Assembly: GCA_002205965.3 (NCBI GenBank)
Contig: NADL03000001.1
Coordinates: 1,488,001-1,552,000 of the forward strand
DNA length: 64,000 nt
Source: Kappaphycus alvarezii
Lineage: Eukaryota > Rhodophyta > Florideophyceae > Gigartinales > Solieriaceae
Direction of reading: 5' to 3'
Shown: piece by piece, positions 16,196 to 44,280 of the stretch
Numbering within the stretch: position 1 is the first letter of the stretch
How the letters are laid out: each line of letters begins with the position of its first letter
Notes under the pieces: generated by a model
What the model was told of the DNA's origin: nothing
What the model saw: the letters and a program-made list of their open reading frames with translations, nothing else
Databases searched by the model: none
Made by a program: the position numbers and the translations under genes

Positions 16196-17485
16196 TTATT
16201 CTTCATCAGAGACTTCTACTTTCCTGCGCGGGTTCTTCTTATTCCCATGTTCTTCTGAACGTCTCTTCTTCCTTGCACGCCTGATTGCTACTGGGATCTT
16301 TCTATTCTTTCCCTTGACCTTCTTCTGCGCAGTCAGTAGTCGAACTTCCGTTATCCTCTCCAACTCGAATCCATCACCGATGCAGGCTCGCAGCGCTCCT
16401 CCTTACATCTTCAAGGCGAATCGCTCTGCACTGTCGATGATCAATCTGCAATGCTTCCTTGCGTCAAGAACAACCACGTGATCAACCGATTCTTCGTGAA
16501 CATCTGTACCGACAAGCCGCACAAGGAAAAACCCGTTGCCAGCCCTTCGGCCATGCAGAGAGCTCTGTAGGGCATGGCTGGGTTCCTTCTTCAGGCGATA
16601 GCGTCCCATGCGAGTCTCTAACCATCGCTGCGCATCCGCAAGTCTCCGAGCAGGAACCGGTCCGAAGTCAAGCAGTTCTTTTGCGACTTCCTCCCCGATG
16701 ATGGCTCGTATCGCATTCGCTAAAGCCGCGCGTACTCATTCCCCATGAATTGCAAAGCAAAAGACAGGCTCCTCCTTGACGACGAATGGAGCAGTGTTCC
16801 TAACCTTCTGCCTTGCTCCTGGACCTCCCAACATCACAAACGAGTCTGCGTGCGCTCTGCAGTAGTCGTAGAAACAAAGAAAGTACTCAACGCGCCCGTG
16901 AAGGCTCTGCTTCAGCTGCACGAGGTTTAGGGGAGTGTAGACTTCGCTTCGCTCTTCTACATCGCTCATAATTGGAATTACAACTTCCTCAACGTATACG
17001 CTTTGTGACTGAAGGGTGAAGAAATCCATCAACCAAAAGGTCTTCCTTCCTCCAAACTGCTCGTGCGAAGCGTAGTACCGACCTCCCAAATAACCTTCAA
17101 CAGCTCCATAACTGTACATCAACCTCTTCACCTCCCAATGTCCCTCGTTTCTCTCATTGCCTTGCTTCTTGAACTGCAATATCCCAAGTCGACGAAGGCC
17201 CTCTACCATGAACGTCCGCCCTTCTCTATCACCAAGCCAACCATTGATTACCTTTCCATCATAGTCCTTCAAGCCATCAACAAAGTGCTTCATCCTTGTC
17301 CGCACCCACCTCCCAGCAACCATCAGCTCGCAATGCTTCTCCTCATCCTTACCCTCCGTGATACGGAAGCCCTCAATCGACCTTACCTTACCTTCAATCG
17401 TCCCCGCAATACCCTCCGCACACGCTCTACGCCGCCCGTACCCTGGCATTGGCACTCTGTAGGTTGCAGGCGACGCATCACGCAC
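16196..17485 (-). pseudogene. Antisense papain-like cysteine-protease-like gene of copia-2
   Basis: One minus-strand frame stays in register for 430 codons from the ATG at 17485 to TAA at 16196-16198, broken only by TGA at 16736-16738 (codon 250) and TAA at 16403-16405. That is remarkable given how broken pol is. Residues 1-249 are unfamiliar (aromatic-rich, e.g. YLGGRYYASHEQFGGRKTFW). The second half looks like a papain fold: HGE-[TGA]-VRAALANAIRAIIGEEVA at the nucleophile helix, then RLADAQRWLETRMGRY, then GNGFFLVRLVG, DHVVVLDAR (His336) and LIIDSAERFAL (Asp351), then EITEVR-like ERITEVRLL and a Lys/Arg-rich tail. The Cys position is exactly the TGA. The same domain lies at 31532-32237 and 42640-44280, also antisense to an LTR element. 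Function unknown; the protease fold is my inference from the C/H/D spacing. Confidence 0.7.
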
Positions 17486-17905
17486 GCGTTAGGGGGTTGA
17501 GGGTTGATCAGAGGAGGAGGCATATCGGAATTCGCAGTAGGAGGGATGGGGATGATGGAGTGTAAGGGAAAAAGGGATGATTGAGAGGAGGATAGAGGGA
17601 CGGAAGTGGAAAGGAAGTGGGCTGGGAACACCAATTGAGAAGAAATAAGGTTTATTATAGGTGAAAGGGAAGGATACTATGTGGGAAATGTGCATGCTAT
17701 GGGGAACGACAAAGGATGTAATGTACAGAGAGGGATGAATCAAGGGTGGACGACCCTCTTCCATATATGTTGGGGTCGTCAACCTGTTCCGTTGGTGGGA
17801 GGAAAATGCTTATTGTCGACGGGAGTGCAATTCCAAATGCAGGATGACTCTCCTGGGTTGACCCCGCCTTCAACGAAATCGCAGAATTTGGGTTCAACGG
17901 GGGTG

Positions 17906-18247
17906 TGTGGCGTGGTGGAATTGTGGCCACCATCGACAGACAGTGAATATCCTCCCAAATATTTACAGTTTACTAATTTCCTGGGTGACACGGGAGTTCT
18001 CGAATTCTCCCATGCCCATAAAAAAAAGAGAGCTACCGTGGGTATCTTAAGCACCCGGGGGTAGGCGCTTGCTACCCTTTCCACCTCGCCGACCCATTTC
18101 CTTTCAACCGTCTCGAGACTGACCATCCTTTATCCCCGCTTCCTTCCGTCCTTTTATTTACTCATTTTACTTACTCCCTCTACCGCTGCGCTACAGAGCC
18201 GGCTACTCTCCGTCTCTTTCTCTTCTTTACTGTCCCGGCTCTGCACA
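17906..18247 (+). repeat. copia-2 3' LTR
   Basis: About 342 bp, begins TGTGGCGTGGTGG and ends CTCTGCACA. It pairs with the 5' LTR. The upstream ACGGGGGTG could be a very short polypurine tract. Confidence 0.95.
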
Positions 18248-18252
18248 AGTAT
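18248..18252. repeat. copia-2 right target-site duplication AGTAT
   Basis: Five bases identical to 10765-10769, immediately after the CACA end of the 3' LTR. Confidence 0.9.
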
Positions 18253-18257
18253 AAATC

Positions 18258-19510
18258 TTGTACCTACTAGAAATCACCCAAGAGTGCAGTGAAGACACAG
18301 AAGTTTTGAACGCTCCAGTTGAATCCAAATACTTTACCCAAATGTGCTTCAAAGCCTACGTCGAGTCTCTGAAGCCGTTCCTCGACACCACCATCGACCT
18401 TGAAGACACACAGATCTCTTTCCAGCTTCTGCGTAACTGTTTCGGTGTTTGCAAGATTGGCTACCTGTCACGCGTGGTGCCACCATCATGCACAGCAGAG
18501 GGCACTGCAAAATTTGATGAGATGATGGAGAGCTGCGTGCGGAAATTAGCCGGGGGAGTACTTGACTCTGACATATTTTGAGAAATGAAGCTCCAAGTCA
18601 AGCTGATGACGGAAAATTCATCCGTTTGGGTGGGATTCACATCCAAAAAGTCCATTGCAGCCGATGCCTTCCTCTCATCCAGCTCGGCGTCAAACCAGTT
18701 GTGCTCAGCCCTTCTGTCCCATTCCATCAGAGATATGGCAACATACCAAGACACCTTAGACGCCCGCAGAGCTTGGTCCCTTTCATGCACAAAATCTAGG
18801 ATTCTCCCCTTCAGTGCCTTCTACTCCAGCCAAACCCATCGCAGAGGTCCTTGACGGATGCAATTCACGAAAGAGTGCATGAAGAGCTACCCCTCGGCGA
18901 CAACAGGAGGCAGGCTTTTCGGGCCTCCATGGCTCTCCCCGGTGTGAAAGCATGGGTGCACTGTGCCATCTCCGGGCCTTACACAAATATTGAACCAAGC
19001 GAATTCTCGTTATGACTCCAGTATTATTGCCAAGTCCCACTTTTCGCTCCGCAGACACCATGCCCAAAGAGGACCTGCCCCGAAATGCTCGATTATTTCG
19101 GCGACCACCTCTTTCATTGCTTGCACGGAAGCGAAAGGAAGAGGCGCCACGACCTTCAGGTCGGTCTAATGGGCAGTGATCCGAAAAAGGCAGCTCGACA
19201 TCTAGTCGTGGAACGCGAGAAGGCCGCTACCGCACCAGAACCTATATTAGCGCAATGTGGCATACCGGCGGAGCGGACTTTTTCGACATCACCTTCGTCA
19301 ACCCTTGACAGCATCCCGCAGGAGAGTTCGCAACTTCAACCGCTGGCCTCACTCAATGCTGCGAAACACGCGAAAGTCAGGAGATATGAGTCATTTATAT
19401 CGAATTCTGCCAGAGATACACTCATTCCCGTCCACTCGCTTACCGTAATTCCTATTGGAAAGTGCGCCCTCACTTTAGGAAATTCAGCTAACCTATTTTT
19501 CAATCATTAG
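18258..19510 (+). pseudogene. Non-LTR reverse transcriptase-like pseudogene
   Basis: The open stretch 18258-18581 has ISFQLLRNCFGVCKIGYLSR then VVPPSC and FDEMMESCVRKLAGG, the conserved thumb/connection region downstream of the RT palm in a common RT-like family (RLL..C.GVC+..+L.R..P). Later frames give ELPLGDNRRQAFRASMALPG then VKAWVHC (18880-18965), CPKRTCPEMLDYFGDHLFHC (19060-19120; a C...C...DH..HC zinc-like motif) and ASLNAAKHAKVRRYESF (19345-19395). Frameshifts occur near 18580, 18850 and 19200. It begins a few bases after copia-2; the element is inserted at or near its coding start. The palm with its catalytic Asp pair is not present. Confidence 0.7.
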
Positions 19511-19698
19511 GGATCTTACGGCTGAAAAATTCTGATATTCTGCGCTCATATTTCTGCAATACGTGTCCACCTTGCAAATTATTTGCAGAAGTGGAACCAG
19601 TGCGCGTGGTGTACAATCCTGAAATGTGAAGATTTAGTGATGCCCTGTTAGCAACATTCCCTGTCATCTCCTGCCCTTTTTGCAGCATCGACAGCTTC

Positions 19699-20560
19699 GT
19701 GGCTTGCCTTCTCTGGGCATGCGCAATGAATCAAGCTCCTTTGCCCACCGCGGCAACTCACACAACCGCCGCAATTGAGCCAAAGCTCCCATTCCTGCCA
19801 CAGCTCACATCCTCCACTACAACAACAACTCTAGCGAAGCCTGCAGGTCCGGGTAGGCGATCTAAGTTCTCTTCCGATGGGACTTAGTCCTCTTACGCGA
19901 AATCGCGGCGTGCAAAGCTCAATCGCCCCTACAGGGGAGACCGAGAGCGGTTTGAGATAGCGGCAAGCAAGGCGAACGCAACTAAGAAGCTATCATCCAG
20001 GGTAACCTGGAAGGCTCTGCAAGATCGCTACAAGCGATTGCAGTCTAGGTTTGACGAGGAGGATAGGACTCAGCGCGTAATGAGTGGCATTGGAGGGGAG
20101 GTGTCTGAAATGGAGGAACTCCTTGCGCTCATGAAGAGGACCGCGACGACCTCATCTCTCAGCGAACGTGAGAAGGGAGAGGGAGGAAAAGCGTGAGAGG
20201 GAGAAGGAGCGATTGGGAGCTGTGATTCGTCACGAGCGACTAGGAGCAGAGCGTTGGCGTCGATGTGAAGGAGAGCGGCGATAGAGGCTGGAAGTTCAGG
20301 AATGGAGACTGGGAGAATGAGTTCTAACACACGTGTACGGAAGAGGAAGGTTTCTGTGCTTGACATGCAGGACGAAATGGCGTTTGTTGAGGCACTGCAG
20401 CGATCGGATATGGCGCGCATTGATGTCGAGACAAGAAACTCGAGCTCTCTTCTTCAATTCAAGGATGCACAAGAGGAGCGCAAACGGGCTCGGAAGAGAG
20501 AAAGGAGGAGCGTGAAGCTGCTGCCGAACTAGAGCTCAAAAAGATAAGCTAATGATGGAC
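19699..20560 (+). pseudogene. Harbinger-1 Myb/SANT-like DNA-binding gene
   Basis: The frame from 19699 has one TAG at about 19886, then reads RPYRGDRERFEIAASKANAT, RVTWKALQDRYKRLQSRFDE and VMSGIGGEVSEMEELLALMK. This is the trihelix/Myb-like helix with W..+..R+..L, followed by the G(I/V)GGEV.EM..LL segment that I associate with transposon-encoded Myb proteins. A long charged coiled-coil-like tail follows (20302-20532, many Glu/Arg, ERKRARKRERRSVKLL). It partners with the transposase on the opposite strand at 20536-21844; in PIF/Harbinger elements the Myb-like protein helps bring the transposase to the nucleus and to its ends. It ends where the transposase ends, so the two are convergent. Confidence 0.65.
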
Positions 20561-21844
20561 GCTATGACAGCTTGTTTGGCTTCGGCACGGTCGAGCAGGC
20601 TGACTGCGAGGCCCTCCAATGGGTGGCGCTGGAGCTCCTCCGCCCTAAGTCCTCCGCTACGGCACCTCGCGCTCGCAAGCTGCCCTCCGGCGCCTTCGCT
20701 GCGAAATTTGGGCTCGGAGCTCCAGCGCCACCCAATGGGGCCTCTTTTACTTCTCCATGACAGAAACTCCTCTAGCCTCGGCGGCTCACACCTAAATAAA
20801 CGGATGTCTGGTTTCTGTAAAAGCAGTTTCTGATGTTGCATAGCAGCATCGCGGCGAGGTACAGCGAGCCACGGGTAGCTGCAAAACGCGCATCTTGAGG
20901 GGAATCTACTGTAGTCCAAGTACGTTTTCACCTCCTTAAACATCCATTCTACTGTTATGCGGGCGCAGCCATCGCTTTGTTGAAAGCGGACTGGTCGGCA
21001 TTCAGGTTTGAGCCCTGGAACGGAATCTCGAGGTGTTCGCATGTTGTATCCGCTGTCGCCGAATATAAGTACTGCTGGTTACCTAAAGCATCACTTCTTC
21101 GAGCTTTGCGTCGAGACCAGAGCGAGAATAAAGCGTCCAGTCATGACGTCATCCTTCAACCGGACCGTACAAATGGTAGAACATTCCATCAGCTGTAGTA
21201 ACCGCTTGAAACTTTAGTGCGTGCTTTCTCTTATGTCCATTGTAGACAACGTTCTGTAGAGCAGAATCATCCGGGCAAGCAATTTCAATTACAGTACCAT
21301 CGATGTACCGATGCAGTTATCGAGAGCTCCGACCCTATCCCTCACTTTAGTTGCCCAGTATGCAGCCTTCAAATCAGTGTAGCATACAGTATCGACAAGT
21401 TAAAAGATGCCCTAGCCTGCCAAAGGCATCCGTACACTCCCAAAAGATTTCGGAAAGTTGGGGTGCGTGCTTGCGGAACATGAGTTCAAGATCGCTCCAT
21501 CGCTGAGGTGTAGAAAGTTTTCAGAAGAACACAGGTTGCGAGGAGCCTTGTGCTAAAGTATGTGTTCCTTCGCTTAGTTTATTCTTCCGCACCGCTAGTG
21601 ACGACATCTACATTTTAAGAGACTTTCGTAAGAATCGAAAGTGCACCAGGCACTGTTCGTCGCCCATTTGTTGGAACACTTGCTCAAATGAAGTAGTGGA
21701 TATGAGTCGGCCTCGCGCTATGTAAGAGTTGTAGTTGCGCTGCATAGTAATGTACTTTTGAAATGCCGTGCACAGCAGAGCGCTGTCGACGTCCTGTTGC
21801 TCGACGGTGGATAAGATAGCGCAGTGCAGCAGTCCAAAAAACAA
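20536..21844 (-). pseudogene. Harbinger-1 DDE transposase (PIF/Harbinger)
   Basis: Minus-strand pieces in order: EQCLVHFRFLRKSLKM (about 21660), RWSDLELMFRKHAPQLSEIF (about 21500), IDGTVIEIACPDDSALQNVV with YNGHKRKHALKFQAV (about 21300-21200; first Asp in the IDGT strand), LYGPVEG then RHDWTLYSRSGLD, and in 21042-20536 VRFQQSDGCARITVEWMFKE with the catalytic Glu in RITVEW. This is a DDE_Tnp_4-type Harbinger transposase. At least four frameshifts or stops. Its 3' end meets the Myb-like gene from the other side. I did not find convincing terminal repeats for this copy. Confidence 0.8.
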
Positions 21845-22105
21845 AGACGACGGTGAGTGATTGCTCTGCTTTCCCTTTTCTGGGAGCCTCGCGGAACGGA
21901 CATGGCAGAAGAGCTTGGGTTAGAAGATTAAGATATAGCCCAACCCCCTCAAGGGTAATGCTCAAATGAGGTCGCACCGTAAACAGTACTCACTGTAACT
22001 TCAGCAATTCGCTATGTTTCTCATGTGAGCAATGTCTTACAGAAAAATTTACACTAACATTGCAGAACTATTGCAGAAGTCACACGCACCGTAGATATGT
22101 ATTAA

Positions 22106-22123
22106 AGCATCTCTAGTCTGTGC
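22106..22123 (+). repeat. Harbinger-2 left terminal inverted repeat
   Basis: AGCATCTCTAGTCTGTGC, inverted partner at 25001-25018. Confidence 0.7.
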
Positions 22124-22428
22124 CGTATTTTTGTAATTCTATTTGATTTTACGGATAGAAAAAAATGATACTATACGCCGCAAGAAAATTTCTATTGAAT
22201 GAAAGCTGCCATGAAAATAGGGATTGAATAATCATTATTTTCTCAGAAATAAGGACCGTTCAATCCGTGTTCTAATCTTCGTGCTCTGATAGGCACGAAG
22301 ATTGGCGGGAACACCGAAACGGCAATGTACTCCATCATTGCGCTTGCCATGTCACCCGAACTTCGCACTGTCCAACAACACCCATACCGCTATCTTCATT
22401 CACAACTCTCCTCTACTTTCGCACGAGC

Positions 22429-26104: not shown

Positions 26105-26107
26105 TGT

Positions 26108-26341
26108 GCGGTGGACAAGTGTACGCCTCACTGGCCATCAAACTTGACATCAATGATGATTTTTTGAGATTTTATGTGATTTTTATACAGATTATTAGTT
26201 TTTTATTACTTCTGTAAGCCCTTCGTCACTTGTATACGGTGTAAGTTGAGGAGTGGCGTGGCTAGGACGAAGAAATGAGAGGCATGAAAGGTTGCGCTTG
26301 GTCCCAGGAAGGAATAAAGGGAAAAGGTTCAGACCGTTACA
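26108..26341 (+). repeat. gypsy-1 5' LTR, 5'-truncated
   Basis: Alignable from GGTGGACAAGTG to TTCAGACCGTTACA with the right 235 bp of the solo LTR at 39606-39888. The first 45-50 bases (TGTCGCGCCCC in the full copy) are missing and the preceding repeat cluster abuts it. It ends ACA and is followed nine bases later by a primer-binding site, which identifies it as a 5' LTR. Confidence 0.7.
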
Positions 26342-31531: not shown

Positions 31532-32237
31532 CTACATAGTCGTTGACGGCCCGTCAGAGGCATTAGACCTCGCAATCGCTTCGCTCTTTTGCTTATTGCG
31601 CGTATATCCCCGATTATGGAAAGGTCGCTTCGAGAAATGCCCACAGAACAGCACTAGCCTTCGGAGCTCGCGAAAAGATATTAATTCTGAGGTCTTAATG
31701 ATTCAGGAACCCCTCGGGTTCAAAGGAAAATTCGAGGACCAAAGCATTGGAAGGATCGAAGATGCGAGTGGTGACGAGGTTGGCGGCGATGCAAAGTTTC
31801 AGTCCGACTGATACAGTCACGATCAAAAGATATACTCCCAGGGGTATAAAAGGGAGGCCCTCGTTTGGTGGATAGAGCGGAAGAGTGCGCTGCACCACGA
31901 GGTACCTCGAGGGCAAATGCTTCTGGGCGTCCCTGAGATCCCGGAAGCGCCTACCAGTGGAGGCTTCCCGTTTGTTCCTGACGGCTGTCTCCTTAAAATA
32001 GCGGGACCACTTGACTGCCTCCGCGTGACTACTGAGCTCATGGAGAGCGTTTGCAACGCAAAAACCTATAAAAACACTGATGTGATCGATGAAGACACGC
32101 GGACCAGGGGAATGGCACAGTGAGTGAGTAAAGTTGTGCGAGGAGCGCACGAACGGGTCGAGAAGAGGACGACTTTCCGGCCAGGGTTTTCTTTGCACCA
32201 CACATGGATGTACAGGATGGCAGCAGACTGATCTCAA
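31532..32237 (-). pseudogene. Antisense papain-like protease-like gene of gypsy-1
   Basis: A minus-strand frame of 180 codons (32237-31698) followed by shifted pieces to a stop at 31532. It reads FIGFCVANALHELSSHAEAV (Cys codon 32060-32058), then RDLRDAQKHLPSRYLVVQ, GVYLLIVTVSVGLKLCIAAN and TTRIFDPSNALVLEF. The pattern equals the copia-2 antisense gene: nucleophile helix C-V-x-N-A-L, R-x-L/R-x-D-A-Q-x-x-L, G-x-[FY]-L-x-V, then H-x-V/I and [IF]-x-D-[PS]. The Cys-to-His spacing is 88 versus 86 residues. The His position is Leu (CTT, 31796-31794), a one-base change from CAT. After a frameshift, FCGHFSKRPFHNRGYTR matches the C-G...F..I..+R end. It is antisense to gypsy-1 and directly downstream of its integrase. 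Upstream of 32237 the frame is lost. Confidence 0.65.
31845..31852 (+). promoter_or_regulatory. TATA-like box downstream of gypsy-1 pol
   Basis: GGGGTATAAAAGGGAGG is a near-perfect TATA box on the plus strand. It lies inside the antisense gene's coding stretch, so it may be chance or part of the element's 3' U3 region. Confidence 0.3.
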
Positions 32238-32344
32238 CCGACCTCAAACTAGTTTTCTTCAATCGTATAGTCTGCATTACTGTCATATTCCGATAAAGCT
32301 TGCGTGTAAAGGAGAATTAAGTGACCTTCGTCCTTGTCGTCGTC

Positions 32345-32392
32345 TGTGGCCATGTACATTTCAGTGGCTGTGGCCGTGTACATTTCAGTGGT
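32345..32392. repeat. 24-bp tandem duplication
   Basis: Two copies of a 24-base unit beginning TGTGGCCATGTACATTTCAG, differing at two or three positions. Confidence 0.85.
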
Positions 32393-32919
32393 GCTGCACT
32401 AGCAAGAGTTTCGAGGGCATCAGGCTCCCTCAGATACGACTAGGTAATCGTTTTGGTCATTAAACCATTATGTCAACCCAAGGCGGAAGGCCTCATCGCA
32501 GCTTAACTCCCAAGACGACTAAAAAAGAAAGGGTATGACGGCCAAGAAGAATTGTGAATTCATCTTCATTGACAGCAATCGGATTGGCTAAGCACCTCGT
32601 GCAAACCTTGAAAGGGGATGGGGACCCGGCCTGGTAAAATATCTTGGCGAATTCGCACCCAACTAGGTGCTTCGCGCCAAATTAAGCTTCTTGAGTAATA
32701 TCCTCATTGATAGGTTTGAGAATACTCAGTGAATCCAATAGTCTATATAAATATGTATGGACAATAAAATAGATGTATTAACAAACTGCATACAAAAAAC
32801 ATAGTTGCAATCAGTAGAGCACTGCTCTTGCGGACTGAGGAGACTTCATACTTATTTCATGTTTTCCATAAATATATATTTATATTGAAGTATTTTATAA
32901 AAAATTAATCGCTTAGCTT

Positions 32920-33589
32920 AAATTTTAGATAAGATGAGACAATCGAAATTGTTTTACATTTAACGTAAGATAAAGTTTTACCATATGGAAGTGCAGAAAT
33001 AGGACTAGTAGGACTAGGAGGTACAGTATTTGATTCAGTAGTTATCTCTAAAACTTCCAAAGCATCCATTTTTTCTTCTATAACATCGTGTTCACGAATG
33101 ATAATTTTGTGATAAGCAGCTAAAACGTCTAAATTACTATTGATTACTAAATTATGAATACGTTCTTCATGGGAATCAAAGACCTTGCAAAAGAAGTAGT
33201 ATCAAGAATATTATCAACCTTTATAGCTTTTTTTAATTGAACTAAATGAACTTGAATTAACTCTCTATATTTATTACGAGATATACCAAAAGACACAAAT
33301 TCTTTTTAGGAGAATACAGCATAGATGATTGAAAACTTATCTAAAAGCTAATTGGAAACGAGGAAGCTATAATATTGTCTGATCTTAAATGGCTCGGTGT
33401 TGAAGTATGTATTCTTACCTCTTCTCCAACTGATTTAAGACGTACATGTAATACAATTAGCATATTTAAAAAATTACGATGAACTTTTGTGTTCTCCTTT
33501 AAAATATTGCTAATACCTTCTACATCAGAATTATGTTTACCATTATCAAACGCATTGGAAATAACCAAACACCCTGTAAAACTATACAA
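32920..33589 (-). pseudogene. Unknown protein remnant in AT-rich island
   Basis: A minus-strand series of frames: NSDVEGISNILKENTKVHRN with FLNMLIVLHVRLKSVGEEVR (33535-33410), then FGISRNKYRELIQVHLVQLK (33280-33220), then HNLVINSNLDVLAAYHKIII with REHDVIEEKMDALEVLEI (33160-33060) and a Pro/Ser-rich tail, PPSPTSPISALPYGK. The codon-like continuity over about 600 bases suggests a real former gene broken by two or three frameshifts. I do not recognise it. Confidence 0.4.
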
Positions 33590-33938
33590 AATAAAACTGA
33601 TAGTAGCTAAACCACGAAAAAGTGAGTCTCACAGCTTATAACTAGTTTCATATAAGAAAAAAAGTGATCTATAAACCTAACTATTTTTTGCAAGCATAAT
33701 AGTTACTTATTCAAAATTTATCCTACGCATATAAAGTCTTATTAAAACGTATATTATCACGTTATTCAAAAGTCAAACGAATGAAAAAAATCAGATAATA
33801 CGCACTTTTAAGCAACGAACTTTGATAGATTCGATATAACCAAATTTATTAAAAAATGAGTAATAGAAAACCTGGAATCAATTCAATATGTTCAATAAGA
33901 TCATTCATAAATTTTCTTATAACTTTACTTCTCTTGCT

Positions 33939-34362
33939 TTAAGCAACTAAATTAGTACTCTTAACAGAGTATGGACTAGAAATTAGATCATTAATGGAGA
34001 TTTTTATATAAAATGTAGATGGTTTTATACGGAAACATAAAAAGTAATACATTAAACGCACTCTGCAGTTAGTAAGTAGAGAAAATGACTGCCTATGTAT
34101 TATTGTATATCCAATGTTTGCTCTTAAAAGGTATAATAGTGGCCTAAAAAGTTCTGAAATAATACAAGTCTTCTTAAGGTTAGCTAAATATGTCAAGTTG
34201 AATAAATTGCCGCTGTGTTCGTAAATAATCCTCAGTATTAGATAGGAAATATAGATTCTCTACTTTGTGATACCGTTGTTTACAAGTAATGAAAATTTTA
34301 GACAGTTTATTCAGTGATACCAAAAACCTTGAACGTCCTGAGCCAGAATAGCCTGATTGCAC
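33939..34362 (-). other. Two unknown minus-strand open stretches
   Basis: 34362-34180 (RFLVSLNKLSKIFITCKQRY) and 34196-33939 (SELFRPLLYLLRANIGYTII) overlap slightly and could be one frameshifted gene. The second is hydrophobic. In such AT-rich DNA they could also be chance. Confidence 0.25.
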
Positions 34363-34489
34363 GATATTTATGATTTTATTGATATCGAATTCAAATACAT
34401 GATGACGTATGATGACTGTGTATAATGTTCAATAGAGAAGTTAAATGAAAAGAGTTTAATACATAAATCAACAAGGGGTGCTATTGAGA

Positions 34490-35565
34490 CGACTGCGCAA
34501 GTAAGAGAAGAATTAAAACCTTTCCTGCTTTCAATCCGGAAGAACAGAAGTCCGTGCTAGTAAATAATAATATTGAACAATGGTTAGACGATTACGAATA
34601 GAACAATATTTGATGACAAATGTTTTTTGCATGCAAATAATTAGATCAAAGTTAAATTGAGATATCAACTCCAATATTATTCATTAAACTCCAGGAAAAC
34701 TCAATAATCTTACAGTACCGGTCTTGTTTTTAAAAATATAAATAACATCACATGTACACTTAAAGATCTTTATAATGTACTTGGAGAAATAATAGCGAAA
34801 TTTTTTTAAAATCATTCAAGTCTCATTCGCTGGAATTACATGAATATAGTAAAAAGTAAAAAGTTATTGGAATAATACTTTAGAAAATTGTTTTGGTCAG
34901 ATTAATCGCAATGAAAGTGATGATGAGTTGATTAATAACTTCTCTTTTCATTTATTTTATGGAAATGTACGCTATATGATACAATTTGAGAGGTGTAGTA
35001 GAGAATAATGATAGTTCTAAGCATGAAGAAAATTCACACAAAATTATAAGAATATTTATTCAAGATATACCTGTTTTAGAGATTATGAAAGATGCCAATT
35101 TTCTTAGATTTGTAAAGCAAAGTAATCCAAACGAAAAATTTCATACATTTGACACTGCTGTTCCGTGCGGACCTAAAAGAAATCGAAAACATAAAACCTA
35201 GGAAAAAACTGATCAAAGCTGAATATTATAGTGTCTTACATGAAGTTTTATAAATACAGAAACTACGTGAATTATTAGTTATAATAAATACCAATGGCAT
35301 AGTACTATAGTACCATAATTCACTAAATAATTCATGCATAAAATATTAAGCGCAGAACAAAGGCTTGAGAGGATTAAAACAGTCAATCAGCACAGACAAA
35401 AAAGATATATACAATCTACACTTGATCAAGGTGAAAAAGTTCTGAGATTATAGGTAAATGTGGTAAAGACACAGAGATTGAATTGAAAGAGTTAGTGCGA
35501 AACCTATCTCAAGATCAGAAAATAAATATAATTAACTATTGTACAAATCTTTTAAATGAATAAAT
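34490..35565 (+). pseudogene. Unknown plus-strand protein remnants in AT-rich island
   Basis: Frames in succession: FPAFNPEEQKSVLVNNNIEQ with WLDDYE and a stop (34520-34602), NINNITCTLKDLYNVLGEII (34730-34795), ESDDELINNFSFHLFYGNVR (34915-34975), IRIFIQDIPVLEIMKDANFL then RFVKQSNPNEKF (35045-35145, in the open stretch 34986-35201), AEQRLERIKTVNQHRQKRYI (35350-35410), and KELVRNLSQDQKINIINYCT (35485-35550). They read like parts of one or two degraded, charged proteins. No family recognised. Confidence 0.4.
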
Positions 35566-35759
35566 TTAGCTAATCCAAACTAATTATAGTACATATAAGA
35601 ACACTTGAACAGTATCATATTTAAGTAATTTTTTTTCTATTTTTCTTTGGAAAAAATGGCATACATGATAGTATTAGCATCGAAATATTATATAAATTCC
35701 TTCATACGTACCGCTAAAGAGGTATATAAAATTATAAAACTTTTATTTATCAACTATCA

Positions 35760-36372
35760 AGTATTGGTATCGTTTCTGCTAACTTAAATGGTATTAAAGG
35801 CATATATTTTAATAGATTACATCCTGCTAATCAGCTGACAGATAAAACTAATAACTCTTTTGAAATTAGTTCAAATTATACTATTAAAGTTTGCGTTATG
35901 TTTAATTTTTCTCTTTAGAATATAACAATCTTTGCTCTAAAGAAACTAATCATGAATATGAATTACGCTTTGGTAATGATAATAGTATTAAATTAGAAAT
36001 GTTTGGTGCGAGCACTCAATTTATAAGACGCCATAAACTTTCTGCTTTACCTTTATATATCGGACTAGGATTAATATGTAGTTTAATACGGTTTGTAGAT
36101 AATTTCATAAAAACAGATTTGCCTCTAATACTAATATTAATGTTGATGAAACTTATATTGCTGATATGGTCATACCCTCTTTTGAATATTCAGATGATGA
36201 CCGTTTTGCTACTAGTGAGAAACGGAAATTTTATTTTCGTAGTACTGTTAGTGGTTTAGTGTATTTTACTATTTTTATTACTTCATTGGCAATTATTTCG
36301 GAAACTGCAAAAAGTTTTGTATTATACTTTTCGGATAAAACTGGTATACATTTTGGAAGATTCGAGAAATAG
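35760..36372 (+). pseudogene. Unknown possible membrane-anchored protein in AT-rich island
   Basis: Two frameshifts (near 35918 and 36120) separate three well-formed parts: GIVSANLNGIKGIYFNRLHP then SFEISSNYTIKVCVMFNF (35765-35915), KETNHEYELRFGNDNSIKLE then FGASTQFIRRHKLSALPL (35938-36055), and NVDETYIADMVIPSFEYSDD then GLVYFTIFITSLAIISETAK ending FGRFEK and TAG at 36372. The last part has a likely membrane segment. It looks like a real gene about 200 residues long that has decayed. I do not recognise the family. Confidence 0.45.
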
Positions 36373-36402
36373 CGAAACTTCCCTAAAAGAAAGGAAAATA
36401 AT

Positions 36403-36938
36403 TTAATCTACTAATTCGAAGGCCTGGTTATCATTCTGCAAACCGTATGTGTCCACAGATGCCTTCAACTCAACATAAATTAGTTTGGTATCGTCTTGCC
36501 TCCATGGCATATTGAACTTATCATGGACGTGCATCTCAACCAGAAAAGGGAGTGGTAAATTCCATAAAGACATTACAATATCATCCTTCCTAGTTCTAAG
36601 TTTTTTCAGAGCTGCTTCAAAAGTCAGCATCTTGGGGTGATATTGAGTAATTTTTTCACTGCCGTAAGACTGAAGCCACTTTGCGTGTATCACTTTCGGC
36701 GAGGTGAGGGGCTTTGGCCACGTAGTCGAAACCTCAAACACTCTTCGACGGATCGGTTTAACACGATAATTAAAGTCACCCGGACCAACCCCGTAGGCAG
36801 CACAATAGTAAGGGATAAACTTTTTGTCGTGGTCTCTGGTTCTATCCAGGATGATATCAAGTACATCGGGTGAACTACTGCAACATCTGGTTCTGGAATA
36901 GAATCAGTGCTATACTCCGAGTCACTCTCCTCTCCCAT
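36403..36938 (-). pseudogene. Unknown acidic/aromatic protein, one frameshift
   Basis: Starts MGEESDSEYSTDSIPEPDVA at 36938, runs to about 36790, then continues in another frame as FEVSTTWPKPLTSPKVIHAK, KITQYHPKMLTFEAALKKLR and DDIVMSLWNLPLPFLVEMHV with HDKFNMPWRQDDTKLIYVEL, ending FELVD and TAA at 36403. About 180 residues. The composition is gene-like, with a conserved-looking LPLPF-V-E core. I do not recognise a domain. It lies next to the DDE transposase at 37980-38600 and points away from it, so it could be the second gene of that transposon. Confidence 0.5.
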
Positions 36939-37979
36939 GAGTTCTTCATACGACTGCTTTTCCCTACAGTATTTTCAACAGGGACAATGCAACACCGCAT
37001 GAGGACATGAGCATAATCCTCATCACAATCATCAGACGGGAACAGAGCAATGAGAAAATGGACGATAATAAGTGAATGAATAAATAATTGGCTTTTTGTT
37101 AGCTTACCCTCTGCACATTACTCACCGAACTGTTGCCCCATTTTGTTGTAGCATACCCTAAAAGAACTCAGATTGTGCTACTGAAAGATTTATGAAAGGT
37201 TGTAGGCATACTTCGGCTTCCGGTACCTGTAACTTTCTTGGTTTCAAAAAGTCGGGGCAGGTGAGACACAGATTTCGAATTTTTCGTCAGCTTTTCCCCG
37301 AAGTCACGAAAAGAAAATTAATAATGTCTACGGAGGGATATGGAAAGACTCAGTAGTTGATGAGATAATGGAGTCAAGAGCGCAAAAAACGAACATACAA
37401 ACAGTACTTTTTAATGTTCGAATTACATTCACTTCACATTTCGGTGTGCCCGATATTCATTTTTTGTGGCGAACAAAGATTGCACAACGTCTGCCATTTC
37501 ATCCGTGTTTTGGTTCTCCCTGCTATTCCCGCGAACATTACTACTTCGGAGGTCACTGAACATCGCCTGTGCCAAGCAAGTGGAGTTTGAGTGAATTAAA
37601 GGACAAAAATGACCGATACGAAAAACACAATGTTGGTTTTTATAGCGAAAATTCGGTTTTATGACCGCCTTTTTTTGAAAAAATACGTTTTTGACATTTC
37701 TTTTCATCAATGTTGTAGGGCATAGTCTTCTGTACCTATGTTCGCATGTCCATTGACTTGCGTTCTTATTGGTGCAGAAAGAGGTTGGTTTTACGCCGAA
37801 AGAATATCAAATGTTCGGCGAATACTCGGCGAATATTCGCACACAGGCAGTTTTTAAACAAAATTTTAAAAGCCGATTGATTTGCAAACTCTTGATGTGT
37901 GTTTTACATGCCAAGCAAAGAGATGACTATTACGTCTGTTTGCTTGACAAACACTCTAGCTCCCCAAACACTAACTCTT
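36939..37979. other. 1 kb spacer, nothing recognised
   Basis: There are only short open stretches (63 codons plus at 37368, 93 codons minus at 37710) without motifs. It could include the shared upstream region of the flanking, divergently oriented genes. Confidence 0.4.
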
Positions 37980-38640
37980 CTTTATCCGCCATGGAGGTTC
38001 CAGCAGTTTCCTCGGAAGATATACTGGCAGCCGCATCGTCATTTCAGGGGAATGAAAGGAGAGGGGGATACCGCTTGAGCATCGTCGTTTTAGAGGTTGC
38101 TACGGGGTTGGTCCTGCTGTCGCTGCGAAGGCATGGAATTTGTGTACACCGTTATTACCGTTGAGCCCATCTGCTTTTTGCTTTATTTTTCTTTAAAATA
38201 TAAAAGCGAGCATTTTAATGCCTGTGCTGCGAAAGTAGACGGGAAAGCGTTCCTTCTTTGGTGCTGGCGGCTATTCCGGCGACTAGCTTCTTTGGAAGTG
38301 GTAAGCGTTATTATGGCAGCTCTGACTACAGCCATTTTTAAACTTGCTACTAGCTATTTACAGGTGTTTTTTGATAAGCGTCTACGTGAGCAGAGTGACT
38401 CCATGTTTAAGATGTCAGTGGACGGGACGGACTTTTTCATTCAAGAACCATCCCGATTTAGCCCAATTTGGTTCAGTCACAAATTTAAAGGACCAGGGGT
38501 TCGCTACTGTATGAGGTGGGAGTTAGCATTAGAGGGTGGAATATTGTGTTGCTGTCATGAATCTCGTGCAGCTCTGTATTGAAGATCAAGAACCATTATT
38601 CTTCGATGAGTAGGCTTCTTTTGTTTTCTACTAATAATTT
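37980..38640 (+). pseudogene. DDE-type DNA transposase, N-terminal half, with apparent intron
   Basis: From the ATG at 37991 (MEVPAVSSEDILAAASSFQG, GYRL), after a frameshift near 38080, CYGVGPAVAAKAWNLCTPLL reads the helix-turn-helix-like region. After a second shift the stretch 38170-38582 reads HFNACAAKVDGKAFLLWCWR, LFRRLASLEV, then MFKMSVDGTDFFIQEPSRFS and WFSHKFKGPGVRYCMRWELA. S-V-D-G-T-D is the first catalytic Asp and W-F-S-H-K-F-K-G-P-G-L/V-R-Y the following conserved strand of a eukaryotic IS5/Harbinger-like transposase group. Bases 38301-38363 look like an intron. After ALEGG the frame decays and the remaining catalytic half is missing. Confidence 0.7.
38301..38363 (+). other. Probable 63-bp spliceosomal intron in transposase
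   Basis: Begins GTAAGC, contains a CTGACTA/CTAGC branch-like sequence and ends TATTTACAG. Its 21 codons (VSVIMAALTTAIFKLATSYL...) interrupt the expected LASLEV-VFFDKRL continuity. Length 63 keeps the frame open, so a simple translation misses it. Confidence 0.55.
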
Positions 38641-39605
38641 GTGAGGCAAATTCGTATTTCCCCGCATCTCCCTGGATAAAACTGCTATATATTTTTAGAG
38701 GATGAATGAAAATATACTAAATATACATGGAGAGAAATGAAGGTATATTTTCTTATATATATATAGGACAAAGAAATATAGATCTAAAAAACAATATTTA
38801 GTAATAAAATCAATTGCACAATAAAAAACCATAGATATGACCAATATCTATGGTTAAATATGAATTATATCATGAAACAAGATTCAAACAAATCACTTGA
38901 AAGTAAGAATTGGTTTGAAACCATTAATAAGTACATAAGGTACAACTTTATACACTTATATAGTAAGTATAAACAAAGTTAATATAAACTCAACTAGAGT
39001 TTGGACATCAAAAAAAGAAAAAGAGATAAACACTCAGTTAACTATGTTCATTTTGAAATTTAATCCTCCTTGCTAGTGATGAAATAGACCTCATCGGGTT
39101 CCGCGCTGCTTTAGTGGCTATGGCAGCGCGGGACGCACGCCTACCCATACTCGTAGCTGCAGTTTGGCATTTTTTGGCCATAGATACCGAATACGACGAG
39201 ACTTCAAGTGCGGGTCAAATTACGCACCGTGGGCGGCGGCACCCACCGAAGAACTTCTCTTGGGTTCACCGGAAGACTAGACTGCAAAACGCCGCCTCAC
39301 TGGGTACACTCGCTCATGTTAAAGCTCGTATACTGTTGCCACGCAGGACGGAGTTGGCAAAGAGGCTGAGGCGGTGCAGCGTCTGTTTGGCGAGCCGACA
39401 AGGGCGCCACAGGACGGCGGTGAAAGCCGGCGGAGGCGGTGCAGCGTCTGGTTGGTAAGCTGGCATGGCACAGGAAGGAGATAGCAAACCAGCAGAGGTG
39501 GTGCAGAGGTTTGGCGGGGATGTACGTGGGTGCATGGGTGGGAGGCTAGTAGGGAAGTACTACTGTAGTCAGGTGAAAGGTTCAGGTGGTCAGAAATGAC
39601 AGCAT
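38641..39605. other. AT-rich then GC-rich spacer
   Basis: 38641-39060 is AT-rich with a perfect hairpin at 38827-38855. 39090-39605 is GC-rich and contains a motif GAGGCGGTGCAGCGTCTG at about 39368 and 39432, with a weaker third copy at about 39496. The 114-codon open stretch 39114-39458 is probably an accident of this composition. Confidence 0.5.
38827..38855. repeat. Perfect 12-bp hairpin
   Basis: AACCATAGATAT, five-base loop GACCA, ATATCTATGGTT. No run of T follows directly. Role unknown. Confidence 0.85.
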
Positions 39606-39888
39606 TGTCGCGCCCCGCGGCCGGCGGTCGCGAGCTAAGTGGGTGGACAAGTGAGGTGGACAAGTCTCCACCTCACCGGCCACATTTTTTGATGTCAGCA
39701 CTGTTTCTTTTCTTTGAGATCTTTATGTTTTTTTATGATTTATTAGTTTCCATTACTACTGTACGCCCACCGCCGCTCGTACACAGTACAAGGTTAGGAG
39801 TTGCGTAGCTAGAGCGAAGGGACGAGAGGGGTAGGAGGGTCCGCTTGGCCCCTGGAGGGAATAAGGGAAAAAGATTCAGACCGTTACA
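39606..39888 (+). repeat. Solo LTR of the gypsy-1 family
   Basis: 283 bp, starts TGTCGCGCCCCGCGG and ends GACCGTTACA. It is flanked on both sides by AGCAT (39601-39605 and 39889-39893), a perfect 5-bp target duplication. Its right 235 bp match the gypsy-1 5' LTR at 26108-26341. It formed when two LTRs of one copy recombined and the inside was lost. Orientation is given relative to gypsy-1. Confidence 0.9.
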
Positions 39889-42639
39889 AGCATTTCAGCC
39901 ACCTCGATGGTTTTCGCATGGTGCACAATAATTACTGGTATACAGTAAATGAGTAACCTATTGAAGATGAAATAGATTGCTTTACGTCATTGTGCAGTAA
40001 ATGAGTAACTTTTTTCAACAGCAATAACCCTCAACCCCCTTTTGTTTAAATACTGTACTGTGCGGTAAATACTGCCCACTACAGTAGTTTGCATTGTAGA
40101 TGGCCCAAAAATATATATATTTCTTTAGAAAGATAATCCTTTAACAGCACTGAGCTGCAGAAAACTTATAACGCTCTAGATATTTTGGCGACTTTTCTGC
40201 ATTAGCAACAATTCGATACTTTACTCTCGGAAACAAGTGATTTTAGTAGGAAACACTATCTAAAGGCACCGAATTGCGAACCAATTTCAATTTTTTTATA
40301 AAACAAGGTGCTGCGAGCATTCCTTCAAGGAGAAAATCCTGTTCAGCGTTCTGGAGAGAATCTAGTTCAAAGTGCTGGAGGTTAACCAGTGCTTCGAAAC
40401 CAAAATCCACTTGCGCCGAAAATTATTACCATACACCTACAAGGTTATCATTGACTTCACCTTCATTTAGAAAATCTTATGACATAAATACTTTACACTT
40501 TTTTCGTAAGGACTTTGCAGTGGCCTACCAGTATTTCGCACTTGGAAACAAGCAAAATGGAAGTTAAATCACGATTTTCTCATATTGACAGTACTGGGAG
40601 CTTCAAGAGATATAAGTACTTTATACTTTTTCGTGCGAGATAATGGTGTTTTTCTCGTTTTGAGCTTGATAAGAAACAAGGCTGAATTTCAAAATACAAT
40701 TACAGTACTATAGAAGAATGCGCGCGTTTTCAAAATATAAAATAGAAATGTTTCTGCCTTTATTTATGGAAGAAAACGCAGTGAAACATGGATGAAAGTG
40801 TAAAGTAGATTTATTTTAGATACTACGCACACGTTGTTCACTCTCCCATTTCGTTACTAGTCTTCGTTAATGTCGTGAATTACAGCTTCTAAATGAACAT
40901 AGCTCTACTTGTGGTTACAACTAAGGCAGTTTATAGTCATGGGTCGTAACAGAATGCTTCGAACAGTGCTCTGAAGCAAATTAACGGCTTTTCACATTTT
41001 GTAAAGCGAGAAAAATCTTAAAACGACCTTTCGCGATCATTTTAAAGACATGAATGTTCTTTCTGACGAAACAAGTTCTAAGTTTGTTGATACCTCTCGA
41101 AGACGTGCCTTCCTCTTAAAGCGAATAATAGTTACTAAAACACATTGCTTGTAAACGCTTCATTGTTCTGATAAAGTAGTAACTTTACAGCCCAAGTTTT
41201 GTCTAGTAGCGCTTTTAGTTATGGGACATGCGGATTAGTTTTTAGTGGGTTGTAAAAGTTCAGAGGCATTCTTGGAGAAAAAGTACGCAATCACAATGTG
41301 ATTACGATTATATTTGACCGTTTTCTTTGGAAAAATTATCTGTACTGCATTGGAGAAGCGCCTATAAATATTGCCTTGGAGATGCACTTTTCTAGAGAAA
41401 CTGCACCTTACTCTTTCAATACACAAATTTATAGAAAAAATCATTTTTTTGTAAAGCATATTAAATTTTAAGGCGAATCTACAACGATGGATTAGCAAAA
41501 ATTTAATTAATAGTATACATCTCTCTACCCTAGGTAGGCGAATCTAGATGAGCGGCCCTAAGTAAACATGCCTAAAAGGCACACTTAAGCAAGCATTCCA
41601 AAAGAGCGGGACTTTACGATCGTATCTTATATGTTATTTGCGCCTTCTAGCATGGTGAAAAGAAGAAAAATAGTACCATTCGGTATGAAAAACTTGCATA
41701 AAATTTTACAAACGTAACCAGACTTAGTCTACATAAATAATTTCGGGGCAAAAAGGTTTCATTTTTTACGTATTTCTTGAAATTGCTACTAGCGAAGTAA
41801 AAAAAGCTGTCGATTCATACAATCGTTCACGATACAAATTCGATGCCGATGCGCACCTTTTCCACACTATTTTGCTTCCACCGAAACACTCGAGTGTTTT
41901 ACAATGCTGCAGTCTACATAGACAGAGGTTAAAACGCTACTGTAGAGTATGACAAAAATTTGCGCATCCTAATGCTATTCATGAAACATCTCCAGCTCTG
42001 ATGTTTTTTTGAATTCTTCCAATAGCCAACAAGCCCTCCTAGCCACAGAAGATCAAATTTACTTTAAACTTTAGCACTAGTACATTCCACTCTGTGTTTA
42101 CAGGAACCTTAAGTGGGATACTTTGTTACACACACCTCTCTGATGGGAGTGGAGGGAGCGAGTTGGTTTGGAAGACAGTATGTCAAGAGCGGGGGTAGAT
42201 CGCTGCCTCCGTTTACTGTGGCCGAAGCGATTCTCCTGTCGGGCTATAGACCCGGCTTACGAACGCTGTATCATGTCTAGAAAAAAAGGAGTAAGTCACA
42301 AGACAAAAGGTACAGTAGCCAAAATTAAAAAACCTTCACGGATACCACCTAAAATCGCATAAAATTCACCTTTCTGCAAAATGGTCTCAGAACTATCCGT
42401 CCTCAAACTGCGGCTCGACTGCATTACAGTTTGATCTCGATCAGCTCACCCAAGGGGTCGTTCAACCCCTGCAACCCCCTCCAGACTGCAACACACACAC
42501 ATTACCGTCTGGCGCACCACACACATTCCTCCCTGACACCTGATATTTCATGGGCCCTCCCACAACCAAAACAGCCAACTGCTGAGCCTTGCACGCCAAA
42601 ATCCTCTACCTCCCCCCGCGCGCCGTCTTCGTCTCGAAG
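39889..42639. other. 2.7 kb without recognisable genes
   Basis: Begins with the TSD and a short TTACTCATTTAC-type cluster (39953-40035). The rest to about 42100 is AT-rich with only small open stretches and no motif. From about 42100 the base composition rises; 42168-42362 (MSRKKGVSHKTKGTVAKIKK) is basic and unassigned. The 3' LTR of gypsy-2 should lie here but I could not recognise it without a partner. Confidence 0.45.
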
Positions 42640-44280
42640 CTCAGTGTTGATTCAGGTCAGACAAAGCCTTCGAGGTTGGCCCATCCACTGAGCGTGTAGA
42701 GGTGAAGGAATGCAGTAGTATCGTCATCCCCAAATCCCTCCGTGGACCAGTAGGATGGCGCATACCAAAAAAACCGCCCGAGGTTCCACAGCGGGGGAGT
42801 ACTTCACGGTTAGAGATAGCCTTCAAAGCGGCAAGGTGACGCCCGTCTCAATTACCCGATAGCAATAACACGCCACGGCCCCGAGATTATTTCAAGACAA
42901 TGGAATAATTCTCATTGGATCAGATCCGTCGCGGAGCGAACAAGAGCAAGCTTCTTCGCCTTGCCGGTCGTCCAGATGTTATCAAGATTACTAGATCTCG
43001 GAGGTGGGTGAGAGTCTGGACGATATCTTCTTCAGGGCCTCGTTCGGTGGCTACGAAAAGAAGAAACCGGCTTCGGAAGAGCTTTTTTACTACAAATCCA
43101 CCCTCCTCTTCGGTAAGAACACGGTACGTCTGGCGAAATGACGAACGGAATTGACAGAGAACTGGCGCTCAGGCTGAGCCTCACGGAACTCCTTTTCGAT
43201 CGCGAGGGCCATACGGAGTACCCGGAAATTCCGACGTAGATAATCTCTTCCGTGGTTCGGAAAATACCAGAAGGTGTCTAAAATTGATTCATGGGGCTGT
43301 ACGTTGCCGTCGACGAAGAAACAGAGGAGTACCCTATCGACTTGTACACTGTTTCCCTCCAAGAGGCACTCCAGGAGAAAGCCTCCATATTCCCCCTCGA
43401 AGGTACTTCGAAAAGAGCATACAGACGGGCTCGTCGCCAACGAGTTGTTCGAAATAAAGCTAGCTTCTCGGGTTCGGGCTATCATGATGATCGGCTTCTG
43501 GTGTCACAAGCACCCAACAAGTAGTATAAGGTACTCTTCCCAATGTCAAAGGTGTCTTCACCTCCGGCGCTCCCATTCCTTTTCAGGAACTTTCCAGTTC
43601 CCCATCGCTACTTTGAGGGTCGCTGCATGCAGGCATCCGCGGCGACTGCGCTGTACCTCGACCTTGGTGAGGGCTCGGCGGAGGAGTATGGGTCCCGAGA
43701 CTATGTGAACGATTGCGATACCTTGGATCTGTACAGTTACCGTCCTCATTGCACCTCTCGCCGATTTCCTGAAAGAATTGAACCGCCTATGTCTTCGTCC
43801 CTTGGCATTTAGCCATGTTCTTGTTGCTAAAACTCCGCACGGCCGTTTCAAGAGTAGTCTTCAACAGCGTGAAAGGAGTGACCCTGACGACGACGGAACC
43901 GTGGGTTGCCTGGTTTTTTCTCAAGCAGGAATTGCGTAGCGGCGGTTACAGGACGAAGCGAGGCTCAACACACCGTATGCATCGACGCAAGGGAAGGAAT
44001 CCGTACTCGTATATGATTCCGTGGAGGAGTATTGATGCGGTTCTGCAAGGCTTCTATGAAAATTTGCTGCGGGGAGGACTGTCCGGAAGACTTTCTGAAG
44101 ATAACCGACGTACGGAGAGTAAAATTGGCAGGTAAGCAAGATGTGCCTTTTCGACGTCATAGTACCCCTACCGCTTCGTCAGATCCTGTGCAGAAGAAGA
44201 GGAGGCCGCGTCGCGCAAAACCCACCGTCGGTTCTTCTTCGTCGAGTAAGAGGTGTAGATGCGACCGAAGAAGTCGTTAG
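42640..44280 (+). pseudogene. Antisense papain-like protease-like gene of gypsy-2
   Basis: A plus-strand gene remnant facing gypsy-2 (minus). N-terminal readings: FEVGPSTERVEVKECSSIVI (42665-42725), SLRGPVGWRIPKKPPEVPQR, GIDRELALRLSLTELLFDRE (43147-43205), then LYVAVDEETEEYPIDLYTVS. The core: YFEGRCMQASAATALYLDLG then EGSAEEY (Cys 43624-43626), HGRFKSSLQQ, TVGCLVFSQAG, EAQHTVCIDAREG (His 43969-43971), SVLVYDSVEEY (Asp 44015-44017), MKICCGEDCPEDFLKITDVR, and a Lys/Arg-rich tail KKRRPRRAKPT. It shares the helix, H-x-V-x-x-D-A-R, x-x-D-S-x-E, C-G and I-T-[DE]-V-R-R/L with the copia-2 antisense gene. All three presumed catalytic residues remain, but at least six frameshifts or stops break it. Predicted fold and activity are inferred. 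Confidence 0.65.

Follow-up and report, generated by a model that had tools for sequence, protein, structure and literature searches.

The window analysed here is a stretch of 64,000 nucleotides (C1:1488001-1552000) from a red algal genome. It carries three long terminal repeat (LTR) retrotransposons, copia-2, gypsy-1 and gypsy-2, and each has the same gene on the strand opposite to pol, between pol and the 3' LTR. The C-terminal half of the encoded protein is predicted to be papain-like, and in the gypsy types the protein opens with a near-copy of the N-terminal tail of histone H3. An antisense gene in all three elements had been proposed in the initial annotation, and it is indeed present downstream of pol in each, the 3' LTR of gypsy-2 being inferred from relatives. 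The genome searched comprises 336 Mb in 884 contigs, and since the whole-genome searches scored the best candidates only, all copy numbers given below are lower bounds.

One antisense gene in copia and gypsy elements

Copia-2 is a Ty1/copia element. It is bounded on the plus strand by LTRs of 341 and 342 bases (10770-11110 and 17906-18247; 89.8% identical across 343 columns), and a relative that is 94% identical to it (L010) has a pol with a match (E 1.3e-10) to RVT_2, the reverse transcriptase of the Ty1/copia type. Among seven copia-type relatives RVT_2 is above the cut-off in L010, below it in L011, L014 and L018, and absent from three. The pol of copia-2 itself survives as three open stretches on the plus strand (12905-16101), one with a weak rve match below the cut-off (12905-14173, E 0.0098) and two for which no Pfam family was matched (14157-14876 and 15178-16101). 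The antisense gene, recognised by comparison with L010-L019, occupies 16196-17488 on the minus strand, essentially where it had been placed initially, and comprises two domains in one frame with two in-frame stops. Its nucleophile codon is TGA; Cys is encoded there in L010, L013 and L015.

The gypsy-1 gene is more heavily disrupted. The element lies between plus-strand LTRs at 26106-26341 and 39651-39888, which are 73.7% identical, and its antisense gene is split by a nested insertion of about 6.39 kb (32681-39067). The C-terminal part (31532-32680, minus strand) contains the end of the N-domain and the papain-like domain, and the N-terminal part (39068-39181, minus strand) contains a decayed histone H3 tail, MAKKCQTAATSMGRRASRAAIATKAARNP. 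Comparison with six relatives (L002-L007) defines the insertion, the two parts of the gene being only 1 to 65 bases apart in all six. Both the gene's start and the element's 3' LTR thus lie beyond the insertion, and the single shorter segment first assigned to gypsy-1 (31532-32237) has to be replaced by these two. The catalytic residues have been lost from this copy, the nucleophile aligning to Phe and the His to Leu, so that the Cys-to-His spacing measured in it earlier has no meaning. The insertion is partly AT-rich (GC 0.35, 0.28 and 0.39 in 2-kb steps from 32001 to 38000), and two open reading frames tested inside it gave no Pfam match.

In gypsy-2 the gene lies on the plus strand, from 42755 to approximately 44280, and its start is corrected to 42755 from the position given initially. 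It is frameshifted and consists of the H3 tail (42755 to about 42850), the N-domain, the papain-like domain, with Cys and His retained, and a Lys/Arg-rich end. The pol gene (44888-48992, minus strand) is convergent with it and runs from integrase to aspartic protease, as judged by blastn to L038 and L064; 47821-48405 has a weak gag-asp_proteas match below the cut-off, and the homologous L064 has RVT_1 and RT_RNaseH_2. The alignable part of the element extends from about 42134 to 48992, with an insertion of about 0.4 kb at 44475-44887. An approximate 3' LTR at 42136-42480 (minus strand) is inferred from blastn of L030, L031, L037 and L038, among which the element on contig C488 (L038), which aligns with gypsy-2 across gene and pol, has a known LTR pair. 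A 5' LTR was looked for and not found. Among 48 genome matches listed for the gypsy-2 gene, 36, including the window copy, cover most of its length.

These genes are homologous. When profiles made from copia-type, gypsy-1-like and gypsy-2-like open stretches were compared by hhalign, the copia profile aligned to the gypsy-1-like profile at 97.9% (E 6e-13) and to the gypsy-2-like profile at 98.0% (E 1.8e-13), and the two gypsy profiles aligned to each other at 99.9% (E 6.8e-33), all three better than expected by chance. The alignments take in the N-domain as well as the papain-like domain, so that the unit in common is a two-domain gene rather than the single shared domain first described. The comparisons confirm one homologous gene, antisense between pol and the 3' LTR, common to Ty1/copia and Ty3/gypsy elements.

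The three copies in the window have all decayed, and others too frequently contain stops or frameshifts; an intact frame is present elsewhere in the genome. A gypsy element on contig C453 has LTRs (245134-245418 and 251939-252224) that are 98.3% identical, and between them the antisense gene is a single open frame of 491 codons from stop to stop, 475 from the ATG, opposite the reverse transcriptase and integrase. Its pol, spread across several frames, has RVT_1, aspartic protease, integrase H2C2 and rve domains. The C488 element is arranged as the mirror image of this one, with LTRs 95.9% identical and with RVT_1 and RT_RNaseH. Both are Ty3/gypsy elements, having an LTR pair together with a pol of RVT_1, RNase H and integrase. 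In four of the five elements examined (copia-2, gypsy-1, C453 and C488) LTRs flank the gene on both sides, and in gypsy-2 on the 3' side only. In none of the five does the gene turn out to be a chance alignment, a host gene or DNA transposon lying nearby, or a protein of non-protease fold, the ways in which the initial annotation could have failed.

The distance from the start codon to the 3' LTR is about 450 bases in C453, 320 in C488, 470 in gypsy-1 and 275 in gypsy-2, where the LTR edge is approximate. This steady 0.3-0.5 kb would offer a place for a promoter. The gene is abundant, with at least 113 matches scored from 816 first-look candidates in one protein search and at least 117 from 1065 in another, several matches per copy being counted and the two sets possibly overlapping. 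Pieces of it also occur as inverted pairs, from less than 10 bases to about 17 kb apart (C732:512334/515876, C51:320760/321101, C711:442181/459814, C44:240874/241782 and C841:229681/231260), which could yield hairpin RNA directed at the family. The only relatives found outside this genome are three partial proteins (P0004, P0005 and P0006), all from the source 'lgn', and elements of this type seem to be present in one other alga or community.

The encoded protein and its histone H3 tail

The protein is about 430-510 codons long. In every gypsy type seen, a near-copy of H3 residues 1 to about 28 is followed by a globular domain of about 190 residues, modelled as a mixed alpha/beta domain of no recognised fold, then by a domain with a modelled papain fold and a Lys/Arg-rich end. 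The papain-like fold proposed for the C-terminal domain is supported by its predicted structure and by structural matches, which include Josephin-2, a herpesvirus deubiquitinase (DUB), ubiquitin-specific proteases, the coronaviral protease PLpro, C39 peptidases and effector proteases. Among the filled rows of a 38-row alignment the active-site Cys is kept in 22/24, His in 19/23 and Asp in 21/24; in L052, for example, these are Cys245, His337 and Asp350, with spacings of 92 and 13. The predicted fold and the Cys-His-Asp order are those of clan CA peptidases such as C39, Josephin and C58/AvrPphB. Unlike these, the antisense-gene protein has no sequence match to a peptidase family: no Pfam family was found for nine of nine gene proteins at E up to 1, nor for L052 and L066, and a profile search of the PDB at E up to 1 gave two rows, neither a peptidase. 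The domain is a putative protease of clan CA type.

The H3 tail was recognised by reading the open frames of gypsy-type genes; in the window it starts at 39181 on the minus strand (gypsy-1) and at 42755 on the plus strand (gypsy-2). The likeness can be close, with 24 of 29 residues identical to H3 in L074. A search of the genome with canonical H3 scored at least 150 matches of 399 first-look candidates, of which ten are host H3 or H3-variant genes by eye, and the remaining 140 or so begin at residue 1 or 2 of H3 and mostly end by residue 45. Of 37 gypsy-type loci retrieved with the gene and not H3 as query, 36 have the tail: 6/7 of L002-L008, for which the query lay outside the tail, and 20/20 (L029-L048) and 10/10 (L059, L061 and L066-L073) for which the queries included it. 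The best tail score per locus is 48-117, compared with at most 38 in 20 shuffled loci. Conversely, 18 of 60 tails fetched by similarity to H3 have a gene match just downstream, in the part of the gene matches listed, and of 14 checked among the other 42 the gene is downstream in 6/6 by eye and 7/8 by tblastn (none for L144). One of the 'lgn' proteins (P0006, 129 residues) has the same tail start, with Leu at position 9 and Val at position 27.

The resemblance is confined to the tail. In a phmmer search of PDB sequences with L052, each of the best 60 of 114 matches is to histone H3 or to a construct of it (best E 9e-4). These matches cover nothing but the tail, at about residues 1-34, and end at or before residue 35; no histone fold was found in this protein, the rest of which is modelled as the mixed alpha/beta domain and the papain fold. 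The protein is thus a tail mimic and not a histone, and the tail cannot enter a nucleosome through it.

Each gypsy subfamily examined (alpha, beta, gamma, eta, the window gypsy-1 type, delta, epsilon, zeta and theta) has the tail. It was not found on the gene's strand at a score of 45 or more in any of 11 copia-type loci (L009-L019). The most economical interpretation is that a tail was already present in the gene ancestral to the gypsy types; because the tree is unrooted, loss from the copia type and original absence both fit.

Conservation and variation of the tail

Selection on the tail was followed in the 60 tails, taken in order of similarity to H3, and in a further set of 29 tails from longer loci. 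In the former A1, Q5, S10-T11-G12-G13, P16 and K23-A24-A25-R26 are retained in 52-60 of 60. In the latter T11 is kept in 28/29, K23 in 27/29 and T3 and G13 in 26/29 each, the codons varying freely (S10 is encoded by all six). Across both sets the well kept positions are A1, T3, Q5, S10, T11, G12, G13, P16, A21, K23, A24, A25 and R26. Tail pN/pS (the ratio of nonsynonymous to synonymous proportions of differences) ranges from 0.07 to 0.27 inside the five families for which it was calculated and from 0.19 to 0.55 across families, where pS is 0.69-0.90 and pN 0.14-0.41, the ranking by likeness to H3 biasing pN downward. Synonymous differences near saturation combined with low pN indicate that the peptide, not the DNA, is under selection. 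Whole-gene dN/dS is partly free of the choice of tails. Of 19 pairs 6 are saturated; among the 13 with finite dS the ratio ranges from 0.13 to 1.03 and is less than 1 in 12. Judged by these substitution patterns, the tail is under purifying selection.

The lysines that carry marks in H3 are, by comparison, variable: K9 is kept in 15/60 tails, K14 in 29/60, K18 in 35/60 and K27 in 14/60. Position 9 is Leu in 34, Lys in 15, Arg in 7 and Phe, Met, Trp or Gly in one each, and position 27 is Val in 19, Lys in 14, Met in 13, Arg in 7, Ile in 5, Ala in one and a gap in one, two of seven Arg in these counts (L091 and L116) being an alignment slip for a printed Phe. The replacements are thus non-random: a hydrophobic residue occupies both positions in 34 of 60 tails, and 37 have Val, Met or Ile at 27.

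This variation follows the tail families, which were assigned by a rule on the letters of the tail. Positions 9 and 27 are mostly Leu/Val in alpha (15 tails), Leu with 13 Met, 5 Ile and 2 Val in beta (20), Leu or Met with Val in eta (2), Lys/Val in gamma (2), mostly Arg/Lys in delta (7, one having Gly at 9), Lys/Lys in epsilon (6) and Lys/Arg in zeta (5); three tails belong to none of these. K4 is Asn or Ser in epsilon (6/6) and Arg in gamma (2/2). In the unrooted tree, made from representatives only, the hydrophobic changes are confined to the gypsy-1-like clade (alpha, beta and eta at both positions, gamma at 27), apart from Val 27 in the unassigned L112. The zeta and theta tails L135, L136, L138 and L142 are deeply diverged, zeta having Lys 9, Asn 8 and Arg 27 and theta Arg 9 and Lys 27, and their join in the tree may be a long-branch error. 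These families may use the tail differently.

A possible role against chromatin silencing

The mechanism best supported by these features is that the gene product acts as an anti-silencing protein, its non-methylatable H3 tail occupying an H3K27 or H3K9 methyltransferase, a proposal that we consider quite possible though short of probable. The protein would offer a free H3 tail to H3-reading enzymes, chiefly Polycomb repressive complex 2 (PRC2) and the H3K9 methyltransferases. With Leu in place of K9 and Val, Met or Ile in place of K27 in the two main fetched families, and with the A-R-x-S and A-A-R-x contexts kept, the tail could, like H3K27M or EZHIP, sit in the active site without being methylated, and lower repressive methylation on the elements. 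The papain-like domain might remove or cleave a chromatin protein or ubiquitin-like modifier where the tail brings it, and a gene that runs antisense and starts 0.3-0.5 kb from the 3' LTR would be transcribed on its own, apart from the genomic RNA. In its fullest form, which we hold more tentatively, the elements would have evolved an 'oncohistone': an antisense-encoded, diffusible H3 tail with K9 changed to Leu and K27 to Met, Val or Ile, fused to a papain-like enzyme, that poisons host Polycomb or H3K9 methyltransferase and opens the chromatin of the transposon, a device also met with in tumours (H3K27M) and in EZHIP.

Published work gives this proposal a biochemical basis. The 'oncohistone' change of H3 residue 27 to Met or Ile is reported to inhibit PRC2 and to lower H3K27 methylation (PMC6513997), and Ile and norleucine are reported to act likewise (PMC6061380). 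EZHIP acts by contact with the EZH2 active site (PMC6513997; PMC6061380), Lys or Arg at the same site of EZHIP or of an H3-EZHIP fusion has no effect, and the G9a active site is bound by H3K9M (PMC6513997). In the red algae H3K27me3 has been proposed as a genome guard against repeats, and it covers 50% of repeats in C. merolae (PMC5405695). Paramecium E(z) methylates both K9 and K27 and silences transposons (PMC6586856); a tail unmethylatable at both sites is what would be expected against an enzyme that sets both marks. The host has PRC2 genes, with four matches to the SUZ12 VEFS-box and two to the EZH CXC domain, all above the cut-off. That the genes of both gypsy types open with an H3 tail itself points to a role in chromatin rather than in Gag processing.

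Several observations weigh against the proposal. Judged from the residues alone, hydrophobic replacement of K9 and K27 within the kept H3 context is mostly a feature of the gypsy-1-like clade and is lacking in delta, epsilon, zeta and theta. Tails of the gypsy-2-like (delta and epsilon), zeta and theta families have retained Lys or Arg at both positions, apart from the delta tail with Gly at 9, so that no inhibition would be expected of them from the published tests and they would need another action. Since a single clade holds almost every hydrophobic change, these represent few independent events and not 34, and the ranking by H3 likeness under which the tails were fetched skews the sample towards conserved ones and towards the alpha and beta families (35/60). 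In the window gypsy-1-type tail position 27 is Asn, and in the relatives L002 and L003 it is Thr. The tail is also dispensable to the gene, since the copia type lacks it. A search of the genome for SUV39-type Pre-SET gave no match, the controls of the same search likewise giving none. Val 27 and Leu 9 are not among the tested residues described in the available parts of the published work (PMC6513997; PMC6061380).

The Lys/Arg families speak against a general rule and leave room for two other actions. Cysteine proteases are known to clip H3 around the A21-R26 site, and the papain-like domain might cut host H3 near A21-T22, its own tail being a pseudosubstrate or a pro-segment that is inhibitory or cut off on activation. 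The kept Cys, His and Asp of the papain-like fold and the retention of A21 in 47/60 tails, K23 and A24 in 54/60, A25 in 52/60 and R26 in 56/60 suit such an enzyme. We nevertheless think it unlikely, for clipping leaves unexplained both the equal retention of A1, T3, Q5, S10, T11, G12 and G13 and the variability of K9 and K27. Alternatively the tail might serve as an address, taking the protein or a Gag/integrase complex to chromatin or the nuclear pore via H3 readers (PHD, WD40) or histone importins, the loss of K9, K27, K14 and K18 avoiding marks or ubiquitin. Readers of unmodified H3 contact A1, T3, K4 and Q5, which are kept in 49-60 of 60 tails (K4 as Lys in 49), and an address would still work in families such as epsilon that keep K9 and K27. 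An address gives no reason, however, why hydrophobic residues should stand precisely at 9 and 27, nor does it suit the Asn or Ser at K4 in epsilon or the Arg in gamma, and it seems to us as improbable as clipping.

The proposal of the initial annotation, a deubiquitinase-like or polyprotein-processing protease, would have the tail add little. It accords with the presence of the domain without the tail in the copia type, and the matches to Josephin-2, herpesvirus DUB, USPs and PLpro would suit a deubiquitinase; C39 and effector proteases are also among those matches, however, and C453, and weakly the window gypsy-2, already encode an aspartic protease. Retention of the tail in every gypsy subfamily seen makes this a more doubtful explanation than clipping or an address. 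A chance likeness, a host gene near the elements or a relic is very improbable indeed. The three broken window copies and the common stops or frameshifts elsewhere might suggest a relic, but the gap between real and shuffled tail scores, the LTR pairs around the gene in C453 and C488, the open C453 frame and dN/dS below 1 in nearly all pairs with finite dS speak against this explanation.

In the open-licence literature no earlier description of a retrotransposon that encodes a histone tail was found. Gene 23 of maize Grande is likewise a reverse-strand gene in an LTR element; to our knowledge neither it nor its kin has a protease or histone tail. The NS1 protein of influenza H3N2 is a viral histone mimic and, like the antisense-gene protein, a parasite protein with an H3-tail-like peptide, but its peptide is short and C-terminal whereas the tail here is about 28 residues long, N-terminal and borne by a retrotransposon. 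Chromoviruses, which are Ty3/gypsy elements with a chromodomain, also engage H3 tails (PMC3605345), but they carry an H3 reader and the present elements the tail itself. Parallels to the proposed mechanism are EZHIP (CXORF67) and the oncohistones H3K27M and H3K9M, H3-like peptides with a hydrophobic residue in place of a methylated lysine, reported in the active site of PRC2 or G9a (PMC6513997). EZHIP, however, belongs to the mammalian host and has a K27M-like sequence, whereas the algal tail is encoded in full, from residue 1, by a mobile element; K9 and K27 are each replaced in alpha, beta and eta, a protease-like domain is attached, and inhibition is a proposal. VANC and KAONASHI (KIU) of Arabidopsis Vandal Mutator-like elements are also transposon-borne anti-silencing genes, KIU being joined to a cysteine protease (Ulp1) domain; they differ in belonging to DNA transposons, in the C48 type of the protease and in targeting through DNA motifs, and the accessible part of the report mentions no histone tail (PMC13317346).

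A copy of the H3 tail borne by an element would record directly, at the molecular level, an arms race over chromatin silencing in red algae. The finding also shows a single accessory gene common to copia and gypsy elements. If the Leu 9/Met 27 tails inhibit PRC2, the K-to-M solution has been reached independently of cancer and of EZHIP, and the idea that Polycomb arose as a transposon defence gains a testable counter-defence. The elements would also provide a large natural set of H3-tail variants that shows which positions matter for binding.

The gene content of the genome is red algal, with at least 17 matches to the phycobilisome linker family and at least 22 to three-helix light-harvesting proteins, one of which has a chain of 7y5e, which we take to be from Porphyridium, among its two best PDB matches. 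Several genes occur in pairs of equal or similar score (VEFS on C474/C744 and C119/C635, CXC on C536/C710 and light-harvesting proteins on C529/C780), and the assembly may contain both haplotypes or a duplicated genome, in which case copy counts are possibly doubled. Elsewhere in the window, three open reading frames that gave no Pfam match lie between or beside another LTR-like pair, at 53993-54385 and 60088-60458, the two members of which are 75.7% identical across 404 columns.

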